From Chromatiales bacterium (lineage in GTDB: Bacteria; Pseudomonadota; Gammaproteobacteria; SpSt-1174), in contig JABURS010000043.1 in the NCBI GenBank assembly GCA_014762505.1, positions 310,001 through 374,000 of the forward strand: a stretch of DNA of 64,000 nucleotides, in the 5' to 3' direction. Positions 19,835 to 47,475 of the stretch are shown here, piece by piece. A program made the position numbers and the translations under genes. The notes below the pieces were generated by a model. That model ran no database searches. It was not told the DNA's origin and saw nothing but the letters and a program-made list of their open reading frames with translations. Positions within the stretch are counted from its first letter, which is position 1. Each line of letters starts with the position of its first letter.

Positions 19835-19857
19835 TGGGTTGTTCTCCAAAGTTCCGT

Positions 19858-19932
19858 TGAGCGCCGTTCATTAGGGAAGAGCCGCCGCCCTGAGCCTGAC
19901 AGGTTGGTTCCTGCTGCAGCGCTCCTCAGGGC
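19858..19932 (-). promoter_or_regulatory. SAH riboswitch in the ahcY leader
   Basis: Read on the minus strand, the metK-ahcY gap holds the SAH riboswitch pattern. Stem P1 pairs GCCCUGAG (19925-19932) with CUCAGGGC (19887-19894). The conserved core GAGGAGCGCUGCA follows P1, and AACGGCGCUCA closes the element. GAGCGC (19919-19924) is exactly complementary to GCGCUC (19859-19864), forming the expected pseudoknot helix. It ends 11 nt before the ahcY Shine-Dalgarno (19844-19847). This class raises expression when SAH builds up, so it should switch on SAH removal. The call rests on motif and pairing, without a covariance-model score. Confidence 0.9.
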
Positions 19933-19950
19933 GGGGTCGGGGTTATCCGA

Positions 19951-44486: not shown

Positions 44487-45179
44487 ATGGCTAACGATTT
44501 TGCGATCGCACCGTCCATCCTCTCCGCCGACTTCGCCAAGCTGGGCGAAGAAGTCGACAACGTGCTGGCGTCCGGCGCCGACATCGTCCACTTCGACGTG
44601 ATGGACAACCACTACGTGCCCAACCTGACCATCGGCCCGCTGGTCTGCGACGCCCTGCGCAAGCACGGCGTGACCGCGCCCATCGACGTGCACCTGATGG
44701 TCAAGCCGGTCGATCGCATCATCCCGGACTTCGCCGCGGCGGGTGCCAGCTACATCACCTTCCACCCGGAGGCCTCCGAGCACGTCGACCGCACCCTCCA
44801 GCTGATCAAGGCCGAGGGCTGCAAGGCCGGCCTGGTGTTCAACCCCGCCACCCCGCTGGACGTGCTCGAGTACGCCCTGCCCATGTGCGACATGGTGCTG
44901 CTGATGTCGGTGAACCCGGGCTTCGGCGGCCAGGCCTTCATCCCCTACGTGCTGGACAAGGCCCGCAAGGTGCGCGCCATGATCGACGAACAGGGGCTGG
45001 ACTGCCGCCTGGAGATCGACGGCGGCATCAAGGTCGACAACATCGCGGAAGTCGCGGCGGCCGGCGTGGACACCTTCGTCTCCGGCTCCGGCATCTTCGG
45101 CAAGCGCAACGACGCCGATCCCCACAAGTACGACAGCATCGTCAAGGCCATGCGCGACGAGCTGGCCAAGGCCGGCTGA
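44487..45179 (+). CDS. rpe: Ribulose-phosphate 3-epimerase
   Basis: 230 residues. It interconverts ribulose-5-phosphate and xylulose-5-phosphate. The TIM-barrel motifs [55 protein letters not shown] and [11 protein letters not shown] are complete. ATG 44487 has CGAGGC upstream and matches the family N terminus. It leads rpe-gph-trpEGDC, a known gammaproteobacterial order. Confidence 0.97.
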
Positions 45180-45195: not shown

Positions 45196-45873
45196 ATGCT
45201 GAGCAAGCCCCGGATGGTCCTGATCGACGTGGACGGCACGCTGGTCGACAGCGTGCCGGACCTCGCCTATTGCGTGGACGAGATGATGGCCCGCCTGGAC
45301 CTGCCGCGCCGCGGCGAGGCGGCGGTGCGCAACTGGGTGGGCAACGGCGTCGAGCGCCTGGTCGAGCGCGCGCTCGCCAACGACCTCGACGGCCAGCCGG
45401 ACGAGGCCCTCAAGGCCCGTGCGCTGCCGATCTTCCTTGAGCTCTATGCCGAGAACACCTCCCGGCGCAGCTGTCTGTATCCGGGGGTGGAGGAAGGCCT
45501 GGCCTATCTCCGGGATGCCGGTTTCCGCCTGGGCTGCGTGACCAACAAGGCCGAGCAGTTCACCCTGCCGCTGCTGCAGGATCTCGGTATCCGGGACTAT
45601 TTCGAGATCGTGGTCAGCGGCGATACCCTGCCGAAGAAGAAGCCCGATCCCCTGCCGCTGCTGCATGCCGCCGAGCAGCTTGGCGTGACGCCGGCCGAGT
45701 CGCTCATGATCGGCGACTCGATCAGCGACGTGAAGGCGGCGCGGGCGGCGGGCTTCCGGATCATCTGCATGAGTTATGGTTATAATCACGGCGAGGACAT
45801 CCGCGACTACGATCCGGATGCCGTGATCGATTCCATGGCGGAACTTGGCGGCTTACTCGAACAGGCAGCGTAA
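45196..45873 (+). CDS. gph: Phosphoglycolate phosphatase
   Basis: 225 residues, HAD superfamily. It removes phosphate from 2-phosphoglycolate, which forms during DNA repair and from RuBisCO oxygenation. Motif I is IDVDGTLVDS, motif II VTNKAEQFTLPLL, motif III KKKPDPLPLL, and motif IV MIGDSISDVKAARAAG. It is 16 bp after rpe. Its stop codon TAA shares its last A with the ATG of the trp leader peptide. Confidence 0.95.
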   Translation: MLSKPRMVLIDVDGTLVDSVPDLAYCVDEMMARLDLPRRGEAAVRNWVGNGVERLVERALANDLDGQPDEALKARALPIFLELYAENTSRRSCLYPGVEEGLAYLRDAGFRLGCVTNKAEQFTLPLLQDLGIRDYFEIVVSGDTLPKKKPDPLPLLHAAEQLGVTPAESLMIGDSISDVKAARAAGFRIICMSYGYNHGEDIRDYDPDAVIDSMAELGGLLEQAA

Positions 45874-45935
45874 TGGGCATGCAACGGTTTCAGTTCAACA
45901 GTGTGGGTCAGCGTGGCTGGCGATGGTGGCGGTAG
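45873..45935 (+). CDS. trpL: trp operon leader peptide
   Basis: 20 codons reading MGMQRFQFNSVGQRGWRWWR then TAG. Three Trp codons sit at positions 16, 18 and 19, the mark of a tryptophan attenuation leader. The ATG overlaps the gph stop (TAATG), so ribosomes ending gph can restart here. The frame lies just before trpE, where such leaders are known in gammaproteobacteria. A second in-frame ATG at 45879 is possible as the start. Confidence 0.8.
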   Translation: MGMQRFQFNSVGQRGWRWWR

Positions 45936-45984
45936 CACCATCGACAACCCATCCTGCGCCACTGTTTGAAATGGAACCCCGTTC
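45888..45984 (+). promoter_or_regulatory. Tryptophan attenuator region before trpE
   Basis: Two structures are visible. CGATGGTG (45921-45928) pairs perfectly with CACCATCG (45936-45943), covering the tandem Trp codons. TTCAACAGTG (45894-45903) pairs with CACTGTTTGAA (45960-45970) with one bulged base, ending just before the trpE ribosome binding site. A ribosome stalled at the Trp codons would open the first stem. No U run follows either stem, so a classic intrinsic terminator is not seen. Confidence 0.6.
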
Positions 45985-47475
45985 ATGAACCGCGAACAAT
46001 TCGACAAGCTCATCGGCGACGGCCATAACCGCGTACCCCTCGTGCGCGAAGTGCTCGCCGACCTCGACACCCCCTTGAGCACCTACCTGAAACTGGCGGC
46101 CGCGCCCTACTCCTATCTCTTCGAGTCCGTGCAGGGCGGGGAGAAATGGGGGCGTTACTCCTTCATCGGTCTGCCCTGTCGTACCGTCATCAAGGTGCGG
46201 GGGCATCGCGTCACCGTCGAAGAGGCGGGACGGCTGATCGAAGAACAGGAGGTGGCGGACCCGCTGGCCTGGATCGAGGCCTACCAGCGGCAGTACCGCG
46301 TGGCCGAGGTCGAGGGCCTGCCGCGGTTCACCGGCGGCCTGGTCGGCTATTTCGGCTACGACACCATCCGCTACATCGAGCCGCGGCTGGCGAAGGTCGA
46401 CAAGCCCGACCCCATCGGCAGCCCGGACATCCTGCTGATGGTCTCCGAGGAGGTGGTCGCCTTCGACAACCTCAGCGGCAAGCTCTATCTCGTGGTGCAT
46501 GCCCAGCCCGGTGGTTATGACGATGCGCTGGCCCGGCTCGACCGGCTGGAAGACCAGCTGCGCGACGCCACGCCGGTGTACCGTCCGGCGGCCGCCGCGC
46601 GCCACGTCACCGAGGACGACTTCGTCTCCGGCTTCACCGAGGAGGGCTTCAAGGCCGCGGTGCAGAAGGCGCGCGAGTACATCGTCGAGGGCGACATCAT
46701 GCAGGTGGTGCTGTCGCAGCGCCTGTCCATCCCCTTCAAGGCGCGGCCGCTGGACCTGTACCGCGCCCTGCGCAGCCTCAATCCCTCGCCCTACATGTTC
46801 TACCTCGACCTCGAGGATCACCACGTGGTTGGCTCCTCGCCCGAGATCCTGGTGCGTCTGGAGGATGGCATGGTCACCGTGCGGCCCATCGCCGGCACCC
46901 GCAAGCGCGGGCGCGACGAGGCGCAGGACCAGGCGCTGGAGGCGGAGCTGCTGGCCGATCCCAAGGAGCTCGCCGAGCACCTCATGCTCATCGATCTCGG
47001 GCGCAACGACGCCGGGCGCGTGAGCCAGACCGGCTCGGTCAAGGTCACGGACAAAATGGTGATCGAGCGCTATTCGCACGTCATGCACATCGTCTCCAAC
47101 GTGGTCGGCAGGCTGAAGCCGGACATGGGCGCCATGGACGTGCTGCGCGCGACCTTTCCCGCGGGCACCGTGAGCGGCGCACCCAAGATCCGCGCCATGG
47201 AGATCATCGACGAGCTGGAACCGGTGAAGCGCGGCGTGTATGCCGGTGCGGTGGGTTATCTCTCCTGGAACGGCAACATGGATACGGCGATCGCCATCCG
47301 CACCTCCGTGATCCGGGACGAGACGCTGCACATCCAGGCCGGGGCGGGCATCGTCTACGACTCCGTGCCCGATCTCGAATGGAAGGAGACCATGAACAAG
47401 GGGCGCGCGACCTTCCGCGCGGTGGCCATGGCCGAGGCCGGCCTCGACGGTGCGCAGGAGGAGGGCTCGCAATGA
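45985..47475 (+). CDS. trpE: Anthranilate synthase component I
   Basis: 496 residues. With TrpG it converts chorismate and glutamine to anthranilate. The feedback-site region [18 protein letters not shown], chorismate-site [46 protein letters not shown] and [12 protein letters not shown] are present. The stop overlaps trpG by 4 bp. Control by the leader peptide immediately upstream is likely, plus Trp feedback. Confidence 0.97.

Follow-up and report, generated by a model that had tools for sequence, protein, structure and literature searches.

Upstream of trpE in a Chromatiales genome we found a short Trp leader that is likely to act as a Trp-sensing translational attenuator, in which the 5' half of the leader would serve as an anti-Shine–Dalgarno (anti-SD) strand hiding the ribosome-binding site and start codon of trpE. 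Trp attenuation is the standard example of a leader peptide that controls transcription, while here the same sensor appears to be read out on translation initiation. The window, by which we mean the whole stretch of 64,000 nucleotides that was analysed, carries rpe, gph, the leader, trpE, trpG, trpD and trpC in this order on its plus strand, as read from its ORFs (Table 1), and the closest TrpE relatives of the window genome are gammaproteobacteria.

Table 1. Features of the gph–trpE region, in window coordinates
Feature	Position	Strand	Basis or remark
rpe	about 44487–45179	+	gene order read from the ORFs of the window
gph (phosphoglycolate phosphatase)	45196–45873	+	ORF; stop codon overlaps the leader start
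Trp leader ORF, MGMQRFQFNSVGQRGWRWWR followed by a stop	45873–45935	+	sequence; frame conservation in relatives; alternative in-frame ATG at 45879
CGA-TGG, conserved Arg-Trp dicodon	45921–45926	+	top hexamer 5' of trpE in relatives
Arm A, leader 5' half, putative anti-SD strand	45877–45909	+	RNAduplex with the trpE initiation region
Arm B, trpE SD region and start codon	45955–45987	+	pairs with arm A
Apical hairpin	45915–45949	+	arms 45915–45928 and 45936–45949; leader stop in the loop
trpE, anthranilate synthase component I	45985–47475	+	controlled gene; TIGR00564, 580 bits

The leader ATG (45873–45875) shares a nucleotide with the gph stop codon TAA (45871–45873) in the motif TAATG (45871–45875), and it opens a frame of 20 sense codons (MGMQRFQFNSVGQRGWRWWR) that ends in GWRWWR and is closed by a TAG at 45933–45935, leaving a gap of 49 nt to the trpE ATG at 45985. 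A preliminary description of the region had proposed this 20-codon Trp frame opening inside the gph TAA, and its coordinates proved exact when the sequence was read. The Trp codons of the leader start at 45918, 45924 and 45927, the first and the last of them (45918–45920 and 45927–45929) flanking the CGA-TGG dicodon. A further ATG in the leader frame, at 45879, lies clear of gph. Since its distance of 45 nt to the Trp codon equals the class-wide median, and since it pairs with the trpE ATG as the leader starts of relatives do, the genuine start of the leader may be this ATG rather than the one at 45873.

To place the leader among relatives, trpE loci were collected from titled genome records (80 loci), from relatives and from a genome sample of the class, which gave 206 usable upstream regions; gph lay within 500 nt 5' of trpE in 175 of them. 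Plasmid records yielded TrpE of under 60% identity only and were left aside. A hexamer count over 172 dissimilar gammaproteobacterial regions returned CGATGG as the commonest hexamer at positions −110 to −40 of trpE, present in 106 regions as compared with 5.7 expected from dinucleotide-preserving shuffles. When these 106 occurrences were read as CGA-TGG, an open ATG was found within 78 nt upstream in 101 (6 in each of the other two frames) and a stop within 21 nt downstream in 90 (6 and 23 in the other frames), and in 88 the hexamer encoded Arg-Trp within a short, ATG-opened and soon-stopping frame, as compared with 1–2 in the other frames. Because CGATGG is both enriched and framed as Arg-Trp by an ATG and a nearby stop, the comparison of sequences indicates that the Trp leader frame is a real coding sequence. 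Relatives with the same gene order, to which the preliminary description had looked for a loss of the Trp frame, have kept it.

An automatic search found 104 dissimilar Arg-Trp leaders, five of which were left out by judgement, three for lying inside gph (L036, L169 and L188) and two as doubtful (L167 and L189), so that the statistics below refer to 99. One Trp codon was present in 46 of the 104 leaders, two in 47 and three or four in 11, and the Trp beside CGA, near the leader stop, was the one residue kept while the remaining peptide diverged. The leader element was present in a cultured relative, Thiorhodococcus minor DSM 11518 (L039); it was patchier in TrpE lineages under about 65% identity, and it was missing at loci where gph abuts trpE. 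At the leaderless loci (L010, L036, L044, L114, L118, L151, L183 and others), gph often abutted or overlapped trpE (−4 to about +20 nt), an arrangement that looks like a deletion of the entire element. In a clade of purple sulphur bacteria (L034, L038, L040, L046 and L076), the frame following CGATGG continued past the trpE start, as far as about +44.

In the last Arg-Trp pair, Arg was encoded by CGA in 92 of the 99 leaders; among all Arg codons, CGA accounted for 5.4% in the corresponding trpE genes and for 14.6% in the rest of the leaders. The tRNA genes of the window genome, collected region by region, came to 43, and the Arg anticodons among them were TCT, CCG, ACG and CCT; tRNA-Arg(TCG) was absent from these 43. 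With no TCG anticodon, the decoding of CGA should fall to the ACG (inosine) tRNA, via I-A wobble. Reading of CGA through the I-A wobble is slow. We suggest that CGA may make UGG, the codon that follows, more sensitive as a stall site, and this context may account for the many leaders that make do with a single Trp codon.

To compare the 5' part of each leader with trpE initiation regions, we ran RNAduplex on every combination of the 99 leaders. The cognate leader and trpE paired with a mean of −22.98 kcal/mol, as compared with −14.34 kcal/mol for non-cognate combinations, and the cognate partner ranked best of the 99 in 24–26 cases, while control regions within trpE or upstream of the leader gave no signal in the same comparison. 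With tighter segments, the leader 5' half against −28 to +3 of trpE, the values were −19.20 kcal/mol and, for mismatched species, −11.19 kcal/mol (z −23 by permutation, 99 leaders). Covariation was judged in this way, by cognate as against non-cognate pairing, and a nucleotide alignment of one clade set the arms out of register; relatedness counts against a signal in this comparison, since good pairing is also seen between non-cognate partners from related genomes. Every SD position showed all four Watson–Crick pair types, the partners being mostly leader nucleotides +8 to +15, and in partition-function folding the SD region was predominantly base-paired to the 5' half of the leader in 92 of the 99 leaders and not in the other seven. 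Nine more distant leaders gave a mean z of −2.17 when compared with mononucleotide-shuffled leader arms, with the arm pairing not unusual in two of the nine (L219 and L240). In the window, arms A and B paired at −27.1 kcal/mol (P=0.016, RNAduplex), and the whole leader region folded at −53.2 (z −3.01). Judged from these comparisons, the leader 5' half is complementary to the SD and start region of trpE, and the target SD is predicted to be held in a conserved RNA structure. The leader's own codons would thereby double as the anti-SD strand in many gammaproteobacteria that are not enterics.

As a candidate for the main element, the stem that surrounds the stop of the leader was rejected, being only weakly conserved (z −4.5 in the permutation test on the 99 leaders). 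A search of the same leaders for a conserved pairing that would compete with that between the leader 5' half and the trpE start found none, and the classical 1:2, 2:3 and 3:4 stems were rejected on this ground. The alternative stems suggested by the preliminary description did not hold up, since the stems of the window are nested rather than competing and relatives conserve no competing pairing; its remark that no U run is seen, and that control may be by Rho or on translation, agreed with our reading of the sequence in the first part, and of its two options the comparative evidence favours translation.

These results bear on whether the leader works as in Escherichia coli, where ribosome stalling on Trp codons lets an antiterminator form at the expense of an intrinsic terminator preceding trpE. 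Both the present leader and E. coli trpL (Rfam Trp_leader, RF00513) show the classical signature, a short ORF in front of trpE with its Trp codons towards the end, and a terminator-like site was detected in 9 of the 99 leaders as compared with 3.1 in shuffles, so that a minority of leaders may use a terminator. In contrast, nothing near the window leader resembled a terminator hairpin followed by a T-rich tail, only about 49 nt separate the leader stop from trpE, and an Rfam search at the window leader up to an E-value of 1 returned nothing, including Trp_leader and any riboswitch or T-box family. Unlike trpL, the present leader thus lacks an intrinsic terminator, competing stems and an Rfam match, and its conserved structure covers the trpE start; we regard transcription attenuation of the E. 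coli type as very improbable here.

Under the translational attenuation that we prefer, a long hairpin would carry at its tip CGA-UGG, as control codons, together with the stop of the leader. Ribosomes on the leader would make arm A unavailable, so that the hairpin would be open in vivo and trpE translated. We infer that the leader is translated and that ribosomes stall at its UGG when Trp-tRNA is low; starvation would raise TrpE because ribosomes held at UGG would increase the occupancy of the leader, and it is through the leader that trpE would respond to Trp. With plentiful Trp, ribosomes would leave the leader and the hairpin would shut over both start codons, that of the leader and that of trpE. 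Closure of trpE would also silence the genes behind it, via coupling or Rho polarity.

To evaluate how a leader ribosome could free the SD, we folded the leaders with the nucleotides under a ribosome masked. The SD was unpaired at a mean of 0.29 without a ribosome and 0.33 with a single ribosome at UGG, a small change because this ribosome sits downstream of most of arm A; in the window the single ribosome had no effect (0.22 in both cases). When the UGG ribosome was also made to block the hairpin sterically, the value rose to 0.50 as compared with 0.33 without the block, and covering arm A, as a queued or an initiating ribosome would do, gave about 0.49 (0.39 in the window). The median distance from the leader start to the Trp codon was 45 nt and the SD partner lay near leader position +12, the two being roughly one ribosome length apart, and with this spacing a second ribosome waiting upstream of the stalled one would cover the anti-SD strand. 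Such a ribosome would probably be queued there during the stall at UGG. A stricter version, a two-ribosome switch in which a ribosome halted in a poor context, with CGA in its P site and UGG next, makes the second ribosome queue on the anti-SD strand, is a tentative proposal that we regard as rather doubtful. If queueing takes place, one Trp codon could suffice, leader length would be set by the size of the ribosome, and the amino-acid sensor of a biosynthetic operon would be read out through ribosome queueing.

A leader ribosome could also act through Rho, as in the tnaC and mgtL types of attenuation, by determining if Rho ends transcription upstream of trpE or inside it, with RNA pairing in a lesser role. 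The absence of a U run agrees with such a mechanism, and polarity is expected once the trpE start closes, as for toiL-topAI (PMC12121999). Rho control alone, however, would have no need for the dominant conserved pairing, which covers the SD and AUG of trpE, and we consider Rho-dependent attenuation improbable as the primary mechanism.

The relation of the leader to gph was examined in the 84 leaders that lie beside this gene. The leader start overlapped the gph stop in 13, followed it by 1–25 nt in 37 and was further away in 34; in a relative of the same family (L082) the leader started 17 nt past the gph stop. As the overlap occurred in only 13 of 84, it is not the conserved feature, and from these positions we regard it as incidental. 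The SDs of the leaders were weak (−3.55, as compared with −5.76 for trpE and −2.93 for the background), which makes coupling plausible, with ribosomes finishing gph feeding the leaders that lie close by. The proposal of the preliminary description that overlap with the gph stop drives leader translation therefore overstated the overlap, while a contribution of gph ribosomes is possible given the weak leader SDs.

The weak leader SDs, the location of half of the leader starts at or within 25 nt past the gph stop and the single Trp codon of many leaders would also fit a hairpin that is a constitutive brake or a processing or stability element, which the leader opens through gph coupling and in which Trp has no regulatory part. 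Such a brake would not call for a Trp next to CGA near the stop to be kept while the peptide otherwise diverges, and the operon under control is trp itself; we find this reading quite improbable.

Compared with known systems, translational attenuation by the trpE leader resembles the ermC and cat leaders, in which a ribosome on the leader ORF frees a sequestered SD. Those leaders respond to an antibiotic, and the hairpin arm is covered directly by the ribosome that stalls. The present leader ribosome is likewise proposed to free a sequestered SD, although the arm here lies upstream of the stall site. In the Bacillus subtilis leader rtpLP, which precedes the anti-TRAP gene rtpA and on which Chen and Yanofsky are said to have reported in 2003 and 2004 (cited in PMC11255114), Trp codons reportedly control how translation of the following gene is initiated; the leader stop is said to lie close to the target SD, so that the terminating ribosome covers it. 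Here, in contrast, the stop is about 50 nt off, the leader 5' half forms the putative anti-SD strand and the gene under control is the biosynthetic one. Attenuation of trpE outside the enterics has reportedly been described in Pseudomonas putida by Olekhnovich and Gussin in 2001, a study known to us by its title. In E. coli toiL-topAI, an upstream ORF controls translation of the downstream gene and Rho termination is secondary (PMC12121999); toiL, however, senses ribosome-targeting antibiotics rather than an amino acid (PMC12121999).

The present locus combines two features of leader-peptide translational attenuators, a short ORF with a sensing codon just upstream of the gene and a target SD within a conserved structure. 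A description of this trpE leader class was not found in the open-licence papers that formed our scope. The leader offers a compact, widely sampled system in which ribosome occupancy, the CGA-before-UGG context and possibly queueing would be converted into gene control.

A profile search for TrpR (PF01371) found none in the window genome; TrpR scored over the cut-off in 31 of the 275 genomes of the class sample, and in none of the genomes of trpE loci L111–L216. The leader suggests a mode of trpE regulation in lineages without TrpR.

Besides the leader, the window contains a second frame of 21 codons (45922–45988, plus strand), whose ATG lies inside CGATGG and whose TGA overlaps the trpE ATG (ATGA), an arrangement shared by 19 of 65 loci. 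A general −1 frameshift or coupling route from CGATGG to ATGA was rejected, because the distances were mixed modulo 3 (30, 21 and 14 of the 65 loci) and the frame closed before trpE in 34. Away from the trp genes, the sole Rfam match of the window at the gathering score was an SAH riboswitch (RF01057, 59.7 bits) at 19852–19933 on the minus strand.
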